The notes beneath the pieces were generated by a model that ran no database searches, had not been told where the DNA came from, and worked only from the letters and a program-made list of their open reading frames with translations. A program made the position numbers and the translations under genes. From Schizochytrium sp. TIO01 (Eukaryota > Sar > Bigyra > Thraustochytrida > Thraustochytriidae): 64,000 nucleotides of DNA. The stretch is from NCBI GenBank assembly GCA_004764695.1, contig SMSO01000031.1:4325048-4389047 (forward strand), read 5' to 3'. Positions 4,525-60,333 of this stretch are shown one piece after another (within the stretch, counting starts at the first letter, position 1; each line of letters opens with the position of its first letter).

Positions 4525-5694
4525 ATGGATGTCATCTGGAAAGAGCTGGAGAAGGTGAACGCAGCCTTGAAAGACGTAGACTTCAAAGAAGCTATAGAAA
4601 ATGCAATCGAGAGGTCGCAGCTGGTAGAATCATCAATCCCGATTGTTATCTATGGGGCTATCCTCGCTCTAAGTTTGCTGATTGTCAGCGTTGCGTGGCT
4701 GAAGCTGTACTCCTCGGTGGAGAATAACAAAACTGAAATTATGAGAAACATCCTCATCGCGTTGCCATTTTCACTGAGCACACTTGCAATCATTGGCGGG
4801 GACCTCTTCGAGTACGCGCAAGAACTTGCTCAAAAGGCTGGATGTAGTTCTAGCAACACGGTCCTTGAGATCCTCAAATGCAACACTCCAGCTTGGAAGG
4901 AGACAAATCTAGGTATGGACTCTGCAATTCGAATTGTCAATACGCCGAATGGATGGGTGTTTACCTCACAAGATCTCATGTTTTCCCTCTCCTTGTTTGC
5001 CTTCCTCCATCTAGAAGGTGCTCGGCTTGGTGTAAGTAGGTTTGTCGTACTTGCCATGGTTCTTATTGGAATTCTTGGCGGTATGGCAACTTGCGTTGGC
5101 TTTGCATTGAGCTACTTTCTCCTCCTCAAATCACAAGAACAGGATACGCAGCAAAAAAGGGTCTCTAAGCTGCCTTTGACTCTCGTTCTTTGCTCTATTG
5201 TTATCACGAAAACAATTGTGGTTCTTCCTAATACATTTGAATATCACCGCAATACATTTTTCATGTGGTCGCTGATAGCAATGGGCATCGCATGTGTTCT
5301 TCCCTGCATTATATTTCGGCCTAGCACCACCAGTTCAAAGAGTCCTGAGGCTAAAAGGCAGAAACTCTTTACTGCACTGTTTTTCGCAACTCTCGCTGGA
5401 GCTAGTGCTTTGCTGCATATTGAAAATCTAATGCGTGCTACACTTTACTTTTTAGCAACTAAGCCTGACGGAGGCCCCGCAGAATTGGCAGAGTATTTGA
5501 CTATGGAACCTTTCACCAAAGACCATTGCCAAAGAGTTGTATCTGCCGACGTAATCCTCGCAACAGCTGCTACAATTTTGTATATGGTATCCCAGGTGTC
5601 TACTCTGCGTGGATTCTACTATGTTATCCTTACCTTTTGCTTTGGGATATCAGTCAGTTTCCCTCTTTTTTTAGGCTGGGAATCCGAACTGTAA
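4525..5694 (+). CDS. Multi-pass membrane protein, unknown function
   Basis: The 389-residue protein starts at an ATG in a single uninterrupted frame. I do not recognise a family. A charged, helical N-terminus of about 35 residues is followed by eight or nine hydrophobic segments, near residues 37-60, 74-92, 150-166, 172-202, 218-234, 246-265, 283-300, 340-356 and 362-382. A soluble loop between the second and third segments contains two cysteines about 17 residues apart. A short basic loop (SPEAKRQK) precedes the seventh segment. There is no classical cleavable signal peptide. It is probably an integral protein of an internal or plasma membrane. The gene diverges from the NUFIP1-like gene. 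Its reality is supported by frame length and strong hydrophobic periodicity; its function is unknown. Confidence 0.75.
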   Translation: MDVIWKELEKVNAALKDVDFKEAIENAIERSQLVESSIPIVIYGAILALSLLIVSVAWLKLYSSVENNKTEIMRNILIALPFSLSTLAIIGGDLFEYAQELAQKAGCSSSNTVLEILKCNTPAWKETNLGMDSAIRIVNTPNGWVFTSQDLMFSLSLFAFLHLEGARLGVSRFVVLAMVLIGILGGMATCVGFALSYFLLLKSQEQDTQQKRVSKLPLTLVLCSIVITKTIVVLPNTFEYHRNTFFMWSLIAMGIACVLPCIIFRPSTTSSKSPEAKRQKLFTALFFATLAGASALLHIENLMRATLYFLATKPDGGPAELAEYLTMEPFTKDHCQRVVSADVILATAATILYMVSQVSTLRGFYYVILTFCFGISVSFPLFLGWESEL

Positions 5695-10411: not shown

Positions 10412-11774
10412 ATTTTTTTTTCCTATGTAATGAATAAAAGGGCGGGGAAGGATGCTACGGGAGTCGATCGTGGCATAGGTTTATCCGTCACTGAAAACCT
10501 CCCTCACAAAAACTGATTATCACTGAGAGCATCGCATTATTATTTTGTTAAGTACGGTGATAAACTTTAAAACTAGTGAAGAGGTACTTTGGCCTTGCCC
10601 TCCCAATAAAAAGTAAAAGATAAAAACAGGCATATTGTAATGAAGGATAGTGTCGGAGTATCACTAATTAGTTTAATTCAGGTTTTCCCGAGCTATTTAT
10701 CGCTTGTAGGTTCTTTAAAAGGGTTAATATTGGGGAGATTCAAGTCGAAGCATGTCAGTAAATCCGAACAAACTTAATCTGATGTTGCGATTTCACGTTC
10801 CAAGTATTGATCCAAACTATCCCAAGTAACTTATTGTCTGTAAAATACGAAGGTTGCAAATTTGAACTAATAGAATGCAATATTAGATAGATTGTGGAGT
10901 TAATGACTTATATTACCCTTTGGGATGAGAGATCCCTAAACCTAAACCACTATTGATTTAGACCTTAATTTCTCTCCCGTTTATCTGTGTTTGAAGGCAC
11001 AAAGTATAATGGAAACTTGAGGCTACCTATTTAATCTGTTTTTTTAATACCATGCCCTACAAATTCTATATCAGCAGATTTTATAAGTAGAACGTGACCA
11101 TAGTAGTGGTCCTTATGTTACGTATGCAGAGCCCAGGCCAAACAAGAAATGAAAATCACACAAAAACCAAATTTTTGTACATTACCCTCGCTTTACTTCA
11201 CTGTAAAAAATATTATCAACCGCACAACTCTAAAAGATTAAGTCTCAATAACGATCGAAACTCCTCAAAGTAGCTTTCGGTGCCGAAAATGAGAACAGCG
11301 AGAAATCCTATTTGTAATATGTTTCAAAACCAGTTCATGGTTTTCAATCACAGATATTAGTAAATCATTGTGCTTCTCGACCTCAACGCAGATACACAAA
11401 AGCATGCCGATGATGGGAGAATGTAAAGCAATCATTAAAATAAAGACGACTTGCTTAATACTTTTACTTGATCTTCGAAAGAACAAAACTTCGCAAAAAG
11501 TGCTAAGTAGTGCATGCTACTAGTACCTTTTCATCATTAAATACGCAAATATCATGAACAAACTCTTGTGTAGATTATTCTACCTCCGTTAGGCCATTGC
11601 AATTCCTCGGCCCAATATCCTCGAGGTGTTCTAGATGTTCTATGGCCTCAGAAACTTTTGTTATAGGACTAAAGGTCGTAAGTATTAGCCTACTCAATTA
11701 ACCTCTCTTTAAGTCATTCATTGATCCCTTCGCCAAAACTTAAAGTCCGCGAGAGCAAGAAAACAGCACCGGCG

Positions 11775-12617
11775 ATGGCTATCGTCATAGCTCTGCGTGC
11801 CTCAAAGCTTGATCAGGAGGACTCTGAGGCATGGCTCCGTAAGCTTTTACGGCGGGCCTCACGGAACGCCAGCGCAAAAGTCGACTGTGAGGACGACGAA
11901 TGCCACAAGCAATGCAGGCAGCTTTTCGAATCTCGATGCTCCGGAACACAAGATCTAACGTTGCCTACTTTTGAAAGGCTCCGCGTTCTGTCAGATCGCA
12001 TGCTTGGAGATTATGATGGAATTAGGCTCGGTGGGTTTCGACGCATTGCAAAAGTTCAAAATGCGAAGGGTTGGGACGTTGTCGTCTGTGAACCGGGCAA
12101 ATCTGAATACAAGCGAGATGCGCCCCATGAGAGCTTTTCGCTCATACGCATACACCTGGAGGGCGATGGAGGTTTGCAAAAACTACGATCCTGCGATTTG
12201 GAGTGGTCGCGTCGGGTGTTATGGATATTGAACCTTCGCGTAGGCCTCAAGAGTGCCAACGCGTACATTTCCACCCTTGGAGGAGGCTACTTTCTTTGCC
12301 GTCAGCTTGATCAGGCTGAGGGAATGGCGCTCCGTCAGTTGGCAGTGGCTTACTACCTGGGCGATCCTATTCTTGCCAGCCAGTGCCGCATTCATCTCGC
12401 TTATAACATCATGCAACGCGGTAGATTAGACCTTGCTCGTTGGTGGATCTTACGCGAGTGGCGCAATGCCAACGCACTACAAAATGAGCTGCTCAAATCT
12501 ATGCTTGCTTCAGCTTGGCATTACCGCCGCCAACTCCTTCGGCACCAGCATATCCTTTCTCAAGCACCACAGGATCGTGTGCGTGATAGTTACGCACGAC
12601 AGCGCTTTGTGCAGTAG
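11775..12617 (+). CDS. Conserved-looking helical protein, unknown function
   Basis: The first ATG of the frame (11775) gives 280 residues. I do not recognise a named family. The C-terminal half (about residues 150-265) is the most structured part. It reads as paired amphipathic helices with the motifs STLGGGYFLCRQL, ALRQLAVAYYLGDP and ASQCRIHLAYN, resembling a TPR-like or alpha-solenoid helical hairpin pair. This pattern looks like a conserved eukaryotic family rather than a chance frame. The N-terminal third is charged and Cys-containing (CEDDECHKQC). No signal peptide or membrane segment is seen. It converges on the next gene across about 0.5 kb. Existence is likely; the function is not assigned. 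Confidence 0.7.
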   Translation: MAIVIALRASKLDQEDSEAWLRKLLRRASRNASAKVDCEDDECHKQCRQLFESRCSGTQDLTLPTFERLRVLSDRMLGDYDGIRLGGFRRIAKVQNAKGWDVVVCEPGKSEYKRDAPHESFSLIRIHLEGDGGLQKLRSCDLEWSRRVLWILNLRVGLKSANAYISTLGGGYFLCRQLDQAEGMALRQLAVAYYLGDPILASQCRIHLAYNIMQRGRLDLARWWILREWRNANALQNELLKSMLASAWHYRRQLLRHQHILSQAPQDRVRDSYARQRFVQ

Positions 12618-56604: not shown

Positions 56605-57435
56605 TCACTTGCGAGCCGAGTTTGACTTAGAATGAATTTCGCCGCTTGGTCGTCGAATCTGCAGAAGTAGAGATGGGTTCTTCAACTTTACAAGTGCATT
56701 GACGTCAGATAATCGGGCCTGCATAAGCGCGAGGCGCGACTTCATGGCATTATAACGATATGCAATGTGCTGGCGCACGAGGTCTTCGCTGGATCGTGCG
56801 AAATCACATGTGAGTAGTTCCACGAATTTATACTCCATGTTTTTAATGAAATCCAGCCTCGAGGGTCCGTCCTCTTGTAGTACGAAGATTGCCAGGTGGG
56901 TATTGGGTTCCTTAATGCAGCTGTTCAGCATCCTCGTAAGGACCTTGGTATAATCTTCAAACTCTACCATTAGCTTTTGCTGCTCCTGCATCATGCGGAA
57001 CCCACTTTCGTCCACTGTGTGCGTGTAGTGAAAGAACAAGTCTGTCTCGCTGCTAAGCTCGATTCGCAAGGCTTCAGGCTCCGCATCGCTTCCCAGAACC
57101 AGCACCTTTACCTTGATAGCTTCCAGTGTACCCACATCTTGAGGCCCATCACGGCTTTCCTGGTATCTCAGTTCTAGCGGAACTTCACGATCGAAAATGC
57201 ATCTCCACCCATGCTGTACGCTTGGATCCATGGCCTCGATAGCGGAGAAGTCAAACTGTGTTAGACCCACGCTTGAAGCTGCCATAATATTGTTGGGATC
57301 ATTTTTTCCAGAATTATTGTAATGACGAGGACTTCCACCTAGAGATCGCGACGATGTTGACAGCCCGCTGCTTCCTGTGCGACGTCTGCTTAGACCTGCG
57401 CTAGCGACCGACCTCGGGGAGTAGCTTGAGTCCAT
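56605..57435 (-). CDS. SAS6-like (SAS6L) protein
   Basis: A 276-residue protein starting at the ATG at 57435. A Ser/Arg-rich N-terminus of about 70 residues precedes a SAS-6 N-terminal-like domain (about residues 95-215). This is the XRCC4-type fold that in SAS-6 drives ninefold cartwheel assembly of centrioles. The diagnostic blocks ELSSETDLFFHYTH, RMMQEQQKLMVEFEDY and NMEYKFVELLTCDF, followed by a helix (YRNAMK-like, RLALMQARLSDVN), match the SAS6L subfamily. Unlike true SAS-6 it has almost no coiled-coil tail. SAS6L is known at the apical complex or basal body of apicomplexans and other flagellates. In this organism a flagellar basal-body role is inferred. One frame, no intron. Confidence 0.82.
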   Translation of the reverse strand: MDSSYSPRSVASAGLSRRRTGSSGLSTSSRSLGGSPRHYNNSGKNDPNNIMAASSVGLTQFDFSAIEAMDPSVQHGWRCIFDREVPLELRYQESRDGPQDVGTLEAIKVKVLVLGSDAEPEALRIELSSETDLFFHYTHTVDESGFRMMQEQQKLMVEFEDYTKVLTRMLNSCIKEPNTHLAIFVLQEDGPSRLDFIKNMEYKFVELLTCDFARSSEDLVRQHIAYRYNAMKSRLALMQARLSDVNALVKLKNPSLLLQIRRPSGEIHSKSNSARK

Positions 57436-58818
57436 GGTGCTGGAGAAAGCTTCTGTTGACCAGCAAGTAGATAACAAATCCTCCAAAAGTTCGTATCCTC
57501 TCCGTACTCCAAGTTTCGCACCAGCTACGAACTGTCCAGGAGCTGGCTGCGTCGAGCGGCGCGATTGCTCGTACTGAGCCCTGATCAACGCTTTCTGTTT
57601 ATGTGCCGCGCTGCTGCGAATTGATTAACTTTCTTTTACTTGAGTAATTTCTTGTTTCAATTTTAAAGAAGACAGTAGTAGTAGGCTTTTTATTAGTACC
57701 TAATAGTAATTTGTAAGAGGAGGACAAAAGGAGAAAAGCACTGAAGACCCAAAAGACGGTTACGAATTCTCAATGCTTTTTCCTTTAATTAGTGCGGGTC
57801 CTGTACAAAGTCGTCTTTCTTTTCTTCGCGCGGAGAACTTAAATTATCAAGGATGCAATAGCTTAGAAATGCCTAGTTGAGAGAGAAGGTGGCAGACAGA
57901 GTGAGATATTTCAGAGTTGATATTGAAAGACACGAAGCGCTAACAGCGAAAGAATATATTGGAAACTTGGGGATTTAAAGCAAGCAAGTTCGTCGAGATG
58001 ATGCACTAATGGAATTACAAACAGTGAAAGGGATCATGAATTGTCCAATTATGTCGAAGAGTTCACTTCATCAGCGTCGAGAAACTAATACTACTACGTA
58101 CCTAGGTAATAGCTTTTAGTACAAAAAATAGGTCAAGCATCACAAAAAGGTAGATATAACAGAAAGAGAAGAGAAAGAAGGAGAGAGAGCATGCACGCAA
58201 GGAATCATTGGCCTCTTACTTGCTTGAAATAATGATGGACGAAATACGCCAGCGATGCACTAGACCTTTTGTACAGTGGTTGCTTCCTTCACCAAAAGGT
58301 CATCAATATACTTTTTAGAAGCAACTGCGAAGAAAAGCTAGCCAGCAGCACCTTAAATGGACTACTCACCCCCACAGAGTGTCCATGTAGATGAACTTCA
58401 CGAAGGACCTATAAGATTTTTGATTTTTATTATATTTTACTGCTATCAAGTAGCTTAGCTGTAATAACCAAGGATAACAATTCATGCACTTTCATGAATA
58501 GATAATGAATCTGCTTAGCTATTAGAAGACTGTAAATAGAGGAAATAGCGAACGATCTTTTCTTTTCTGCTTTGAGCACAATCTAGGGAAATATGCATAT
58601 TGTCCAAATGATTGTATGGAGCAATATAATCTTTATTGAAGAGCGATGCCAAAAGAGAAATAGCTTAACGAGAAAGAATATGAAAAAAATTAAGCGCTCG
58701 CATGAAAAAAGGTAGAATGAGACGAGCTAGAATCAGCTGATCAAACGCAAGATTTCACGAAAAGGTGAGGGCAATGGAAAAACAACAAACATATGATTTG
58801 TGACAATACGGGGTTTAG
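57436..58818. other. Intergenic region between two minus-strand genes
   Basis: About 1.4 kb containing the SAS6L promoter side and the 3' flank of the pseudokinase gene. The SAS6L frame stays open upstream to 57588 with only a TTG, so the extra 51 codons are probably untranslated. A TACGTACCTAGGTAAT motif lies near 58096. No gene is seen. Confidence 0.45.
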
Positions 58819-60333
58819 TTACACAAGACGTTTAAGTTCAAGAAGAATTGTGTCCATAGAAGGACGATGTTTGGATTTGTGGTTTAAGCACTCATGCATA
58901 AGTCGCTCGAGTGGCCTGAATTCCTTTGGGGCAAAATATCCCTGAGGAGGAAACTGCTCGCTGAGTACAAGTTCCTCAACCTGACTCAGCGTGTAATGCT
59001 TATAAAAAGGCTGCTCACGGGCAAGCATCTCATACATAATGGCTCCGTACGACCAAACATCAATAGACTCATCGTACATATCGCCACGAAAACACTCTGG
59101 ACTGCGATATTGCGGAGAGGTAACACAGGTTGATGTGCGTTCAAAGGGGCCCGATTCTCCGGGTGCGCGCATGCGCTTAGCCACCTCAAAATTGGTGAGC
59201 TTGGCGGTATAACTAAATCCATTCATGTGCAAATCAGGGTCAAGCGAGGAGTATGCGCCTGGCTGATCAGTACCTGACTGGGCTCGCCAAACTGGAGTAG
59301 GTTGCTTCCCATTGCCAGAAGTGGAGTTTTTCTCACTAGAGTTACCGAAGATGTTACTAAGAGAGCGACTGAGTCGAAAGTGCTTACGCATGGCTGCCGC
59401 CCAGTTACCACTGGTAGGGAAATCTGCATAGACCATCATTACATTTTCAGAGGTAAGATCACGGTGTACGATACCTTGTTCATGGAGAAATACGAGGGCT
59501 TCGGCTATATCCATGGAATACTTACGTACTTCAATATAGGATAGCCTTTCATGACCCGTAGCGCGATGGAACACGAGGTCAGAGAGCGAATCGACAGCAA
59601 ATTCAAAAGCAATACGGCGCTCAAGGACATCGTCGAGTCCACGATATTCTTCGTACCCGAAGAATTGTATGATGTTAGGATGCTCGAGCTTTTGCAGGAT
59701 ATTAAGCTCGTTGTTGAAGATTTGATTATGGTCAGGGAGGCATGTAGGAGCTTGCAAACGAAGTTGCTGAACATATACAATGCCATGCTTTTCGGAAACT
59801 GCACGAAATGAGTGTTTACCTGAGACTGGACTGCGACTAAGGTCATCGAGCAAGTTCAACTCGCCCGTGAGCCTTTTAAGTTTGGCAGGGACGATGATAT
59901 CTCCAAAGTCTCCTTGCGCTGTCCAATTATTGGAGATTGCGTGGCCACTTGAAGACGTTTGCAAGATTGGGAATTCATCGGAGTCTATCTCATCATTAAG
60001 GCTCAGTGATTCGCTTGATGGACTTGCTTCCTTCTGTGTCCCACGTCTTTCGCGGGATGACATTTTCACAAGCTTAGATGTAGCATGTGATATCTGAGAA
60101 ACTATTGTTTTCCTGGCGGGGGGGACACCTTGGGGCTGACCTTGCGTCTTTGATTGAACAGAGGCCGAGTCCTCCGCAGCCTGTGCTTCAAGAAACATAT
60201 CAAGATGTCTACAGTGTCCAGCTTCTCTAAACTCGGCACACGAGCAGGAGGGGCCTGCCCATCGTTTGCGCTGCTTACATTGTTGAAGAGCGTTGAAAAG
60301 TCCTTGGCCAAGACTTGGCTTGTGGAGCGACAT
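58819..60333 (-). CDS. SWIM-finger protein with kinase-like (pseudokinase) domain
   Basis: A 504-residue protein from the ATG at 60333. Residues 30-43 form CxC-x8-CxH (C30, C32, C41, H43), the SWIM zinc-binding pattern. Residues 60-160 are Ser-rich and probably disordered. A tyrosine-kinase-like (TKL) fold spans about 165-504: alphaC Glu209 (NNELNIL), HRDLTSEN (290-297), the YRSPE segment (409-413), DVWSYG (425-430) and a final helical lobe ending PSMDTILLELKRL. Three catalytic features are missing: no glycine-rich loop, Gln189 (VYVQQL) in place of the ATP-binding Lys, and NFE (381-383) in place of DFG. About 75 residues (298-377, Ser/Gly-rich) are inserted between the catalytic loop and that position. 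It probably lacks kinase activity and acts as a binding or allosteric module (inference). One frame, no intron. Confidence 0.88.
   Translation of the reverse strand: MSLHKPSLGQGLFNALQQCKQRKRWAGPSCSCAEFREAGHCRHLDMFLEAQAAEDSASVQSKTQGQPQGVPPARKTIVSQISHATSKLVKMSSRERRGTQKEASPSSESLSLNDEIDSDEFPILQTSSSGHAISNNWTAQGDFGDIIVPAKLKRLTGELNLLDDLSRSPVSGKHSFRAVSEKHGIVYVQQLRLQAPTCLPDHNQIFNNELNILQKLEHPNIIQFFGYEEYRGLDDVLERRIAFEFAVDSLSDLVFHRATGHERLSYIEVRKYSMDIAEALVFLHEQGIVHRDLTSENVMMVYADFPTSGNWAAAMRKHFRLSRSLSNIFGNSSEKNSTSGNGKQPTPVWRAQSGTDQPGAYSSLDPDLHMNGFSYTAKLTNFEVAKRMRAPGESGPFERTSTCVTSPQYRSPECFRGDMYDESIDVWSYGAIMYEMLAREQPFYKHYTLSQVEELVLSEQFPPQGYFAPKEFRPLERLMHECLNHKSKHRPSMDTILLELKRLV

Follow-up and report, generated by a model that had tools for sequence, protein, structure and literature searches.

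The open reading frame at 58819..60333 on the minus strand of the window, the whole 64,000-nucleotide stretch of Schizochytrium sp. TIO01 DNA analysed here, raises the question of whether a protein that joins a putative zinc finger to a kinase-like domain is an enzyme or acts without catalysis. The frame is present as the initial annotation claimed, encoding 504 amino acids and a stop codon, and an in-frame stop lies seven codons upstream of the ATG. We consider it probable that the gene product is a pseudokinase whose N-terminus bears a SWIM-like finger, itself probably zinc-binding, and that it serves as a non-catalytic scaffold or allosteric partner.

The C-terminal 350 residues form a clear protein-kinase fold, scoring 116.3 bits (2.1e-33) against Pfam Pkinase (PF00069) and exceeding its curated cut-off of 31.7. 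By homology and model, the stretch from the N-lobe to the catalytic loop covers residues 151-300 (59434..59883, minus strand) and the C-lobe covers residues 376-504 (58822..59208, minus strand). For most of the domain, an AlphaFold model with an input alignment of 14 prokaryotic kinases had block pLDDT values of about 70-97, mostly 75-97, and compared with solved kinases it gave a Z of about 30 over 260 residues. The best solved relative by sequence was B-Raf (phmmer, 2.6e-17, or 4.5e-21 with the insert omitted from the query), which is itself active, distant in sequence and without a finger of this type. The domain had been called TKL-like, and B-Raf as top hit agrees with this, but other groups are close (78.7 bits for B-Raf, with TYK2, VKR2 and PKC iota little lower) and Pkinase outscores the TK/TKL model PK_Tyr_Ser-Thr (94 bits), leaving the assignment weakly supported by these sequence comparisons. 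No relatives of the pseudokinase were found in viral contigs, and matches in phage and plasmid records were partial and confined to parts of the kinase domain.

Within this retained fold, three of the usual motifs (Gly loop, VAIK Lys and DFG) are lost, as initially read. The model predicts strands beta-1 at residues 159-168, beta-2 at 173-182 and beta-3 at 185-194; because beta-3 spans these last residues, Gln189 of the VYVQ stretch (186-189) occupies the VAIK Lys position (59767..59769, minus strand) and Tyr187 the Ala position. This register agrees among the phmmer B-Raf alignment, an HMM built from own-genome kinases and the predicted structure, whereas a MAFFT alignment with prokaryotic kinases was a few residues out of register at beta-3. 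DFG has become NFE at residues 381-383 (59185..59193, minus strand; sequence and own-genome HMM), and in place of the Gly loop there is no GxGxxG and at most one Gly (G172). HRD is kept within HRDLTSEN at residues 290-297 (HRD itself 290-292, 59458..59466, minus strand, by sequence and own-genome HMM), as is an APE-like segment, SPE, at residues 411-413 (59095..59103, minus strand, by sequence). The conserved alpha-C Glu is Glu209 (59707..59709, minus strand, by alignment and own-genome HMM), and the residues kept in all are E209, H290, R291, D292, the catalytic-loop Asn N297, F382, E413, D425 and R490. A pseudokinase misses at least one of the VAIK Lys, HRD Asp and DFG Asp, and here Gln189 and Asn381 replace the first and the last. 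The VAIK Ala lines the adenine pocket of kinases, and Tyr187 would block this pocket, which argues against ATP binding. From these motifs, catalysis is very probably dead.

Several proteins, namely WNK, CASK and PRPK, are active despite missing the beta-3 Lys or the DFG Asp (PMC4718504). The protein could likewise be a non-canonical active kinase. As in WNK, loop residue K173 or R177 would then stand in for the Lys and, as in CASK, Asn381 would replace the Asp and give activity that is metal-independent or weak; Asp292 of HRD, Asn297, Glu209 and SPE in the activation segment are all intact. An Arg also lies roughly at the WNK loop-Lys site. This explanation is very unlikely, since neither the Lys nor the metal-binding Asp is left, the Gly loop is missing and the Tyr at the VAIK Ala position should fill the adenine pocket. 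A WNK-like kinase combines a Lys on the glycine-loop strand with an intact DFG, and the pseudokinase has Arg at the likely position and has lost DFG.

Two segments, a linker and an insert, flank or interrupt the kinase domain. The linker at residues 60-150 (59884..60156, minus strand) is probably disordered, as predicted from low pLDDT. Between the catalytic loop and NFE lies an insert at residues 303-373 (59215..59427, minus strand), which had been described as 75 residues of Ser/Gly; an insert of about 70 residues is there, but it is Ser-rich instead because it holds 11 Ser and 7 Gly in 71 residues. It had been called unusual but is not unique, since the own-genome kinase L005 carries about 76 residues at the same site. 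Inside the insert, an in-frame GTAAGC...CAG stretch of 96-129 nt is a possible intron and would suit a decaying or mis-modelled gene with unrecognised introns, in which the defects are recent or artificial. Splicing of the insert, however, cannot yield substitutions at several separate motifs. The 504-codon frame is unbroken and the kinase part shows coding-like codon usage in each 28-codon block, insert included, so the gene is not a decayed pseudogene. An upstream exon that might supply the SWIM hairpin was also rejected, as the minus strand upstream is without coding signal. We regard decay or a faulty gene model as extremely unlikely.

Other genes in the window include one with the N-terminal domain of the centriole-cartwheel protein SAS-6 (PF16531, 1.1e-40) at 56605-57588 on the minus strand, which adjoins the pseudokinase gene. 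We also observed an EMP70 gene, a presumably Prp8-like gene identified by reading its ORF, and ORFs matching DUF4807 and DUF2834 on the plus strand (11721-12614 and 4525-5691, respectively). With its SAS-6, EMP70 and Prp8-like genes, the window is eukaryotic.

The CxCx8CxH motif lies near the N-terminus, as annotated, at residues 30-43 (CSCAEFREAGHCRH; 60205..60246, minus strand), conforms to the SWIM (PF04434) ligand pattern CxCx(n)CxH and has ligand surroundings that fit SWIM (PSCSC..F..G.C.HL). The motif is rare by chance: when the 504-aa protein is shuffled with its composition kept, a CxCx(5-16)CxH pattern turns up 0.05% of the time. Against a home-made HMM of 13 SWIMs (10 bacterial and three from the same genome), the finger scored 10.9 bits, higher than all 1773 full shuffles, but among 1997 decoys that kept the four ligands fixed, 58 did as well. 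The Pfam SWIM model (cut-off 19.6 bits) gave no match to the finger, either in the protein or in the genome search. In a SWIM finger a beta hairpin lies ahead of the CxC and a helix behind the CxH, with the ligands clustered. In the low-to-medium-confidence model of the N-terminal finger region (residues 1-57; 60163..60333, minus strand), a helix at 8-22 and no beta hairpin precedes the CxC loop and, at low pLDDT, a further helix starting at C41 follows the CxH; the prediction is too weak to display a zinc cluster. Foldseek with the 75-residue N-terminus gave no meaningful match, and no paralogues of the N-terminus were found at a useful E-value.

The initial SWIM label survives in part: the metal-ligand half beats shuffles against SWIM, but the finger falls below the Pfam cut-off and no hairpin is predicted. 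We call it SWIM-like rather than a proven SWIM, as its sequence resembles the metal-binding half of such a finger, and we find it likely that it binds zinc. The alternative is a pseudokinase without a functional finger, in which CxCx8CxH arose by chance or does not bind metal, the N-terminus is disordered and the dead kinase alone matters. The Pfam miss favours such a protein, as do the helix at 8-22 where the SWIM hairpin is expected, the weak, near-neutral codon signal of the first 140 codons, and a P of 0.0005 per protein that is not negligible over a genome-wide kinome. Set against these points are the residues flanking the ligands, which suit SWIM, and a better SWIM-like finger in a second kinase of the same genome; we judge a non-functional finger unlikely.

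This second kinase, L067/L089, emerged from a CxC...CxH scan of sampled own-genome kinase ORFs, which returned two proteins, the pseudokinase and L067. Its finger (CTCPEWKLNKEPREARTCEH; pattern CxCPxW...CxHL) is preceded by a strand-like stretch, YILRRSGHVYE, and scored 11.7 bits against Pfam SWIM, under the 19.6-bit cut-off. The L089 ORF (L089 197-3451, 1084 aa; G000:C24:3199596-3202850) runs from ankyrin repeats through a SAM-like stretch, itself under its cut-off, to the finger, a Ser-rich linker and the kinase. Like the pseudokinase, L067/L089 thus has a SWIM-like CxC...CxHL finger, a Ser-rich linker and then a kinase domain; unlike it, L067/L089 has ankyrin and SAM-like domains, the strand-like stretch before the finger, and a kinase whose VAVK, HRD and DFG are all intact, making it apparently active. 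A common origin through the kinase domain was unsupported, as L067 comes 39th when 46 ORFs are ordered by how closely they resemble the pseudokinase domain, and the two fingers are no more alike than either is to other SWIMs. Because the kinase domains of the two proteins are not closely related, the SWIM-like pairings look independent; finger and kinase occur together at least twice in this genome and were probably joined separately.

The pairing is unusual without being unique, and it has a known precedent. MAP3K1 (MEKK1) has a SWIM at 228-266 in addition to its kinase domain (PMC13072407), with the finger N-terminal to the kinase as in the pseudokinase, but MAP3K1 belongs to the STE group, is active and carries PHD/RING and TOG domains, whereas the pseudokinase is short, its kinase domain is dead and Pfam finds no RING in it. 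The pairing of a SWIM finger with a pseudokinase had been annotated as not known; since MAP3K1 (PMC13072407) and L067 already combine finger and kinase, what may be new is no more than the joining of such a finger to a dead kinase. In a literature search on SWIM and pseudokinases, covering few subscription papers, the matches listed used swim in other senses, judging by title, and the absence of literature on SWIM-pseudokinases is weak evidence. TKL pseudokinases, including IRAK-like and other proteins of Phytophthora infestans as well as BSK8, MLKL and IRAK3, share a kinase fold with lost catalytic residues, but the motifs lost are different and none is described with a SWIM finger in PMC3019232.

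Loss of catalytic residues is itself at the usual level in this genome. Among 62 distinct kinase ORFs, a sample that over-represents both good matches to the kinase model and intact kinases, six (about 10%) miss a canonical residue: the pseudokinase (Q, NFE), L080 (GFG), L096 (HRN, GFA), L097 (HRN, NFG), L107 (HRN) and L005 (HRN, DFA). Only in the pseudokinase is the beta-3 Lys missing. In P. infestans, 9% of kinases are inactive, mostly TKL, and about 10% is the level reported for this and other organisms (PMC3019232). L096, L097, L107 and L080 are further predicted pseudokinases, and the related TKL-type kinases L007, L018, L059 and L060 have QRD for HRD. The CMGC-like L005 (G000:C31:3925783-3929448) has its long insert before DFA, and by eye its ORF also includes a cyclin-like region, recalling reports of CDK-cyclin fusions in Phytophthora (PMC3019232). 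Two pairs of loci gave identical kinase scores, each pair split between a short contig and a long one: G000:C9:109514-110281 with C33:3536035-3536802, and C14:87090-87851 with C31:41409-42170; these are duplicated or haplotypic assembly stretches.

Pseudokinases commonly act without catalysis (PMC4718504, PMC3019232), and a plausible mechanism can be outlined. The ATP pocket would be empty or nearly so, given Lys to Gln and Ala to Tyr at beta-3 and Asp to Asn and Gly to Glu at DFG, while the C-lobe and the kept HRD/Phe spine may maintain a rigid docking surface. One partner, either a protein or a nucleic acid, could bind to the finger and a second to the kinase-like domain, the latter typically an active kinase or the substrate of one; two such docking sites would suit a scaffold or allosteric partner, not an enzyme. 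The disordered Ser-rich linker and the insert may provide phosphorylation or flexible docking segments. A further idea, raised with some doubt, is that SWIM-finger kinases and pseudokinases make up a class specific to this lineage. Fingers would have been joined to TKL-like kinases repeatedly, and one member would now be a dedicated ATP-independent zinc-finger scaffold paired with active sisters; as a whole, this is unlikely. By itself, one pseudokinase is ordinary where about a tenth of a kinome is usually of this sort. Should the finger prove real and the dead kinase conserved, the protein would represent a second type of SWIM-kinase architecture outside animals and a small example in which to study how protist kinase scaffolds are directed by their fingers.
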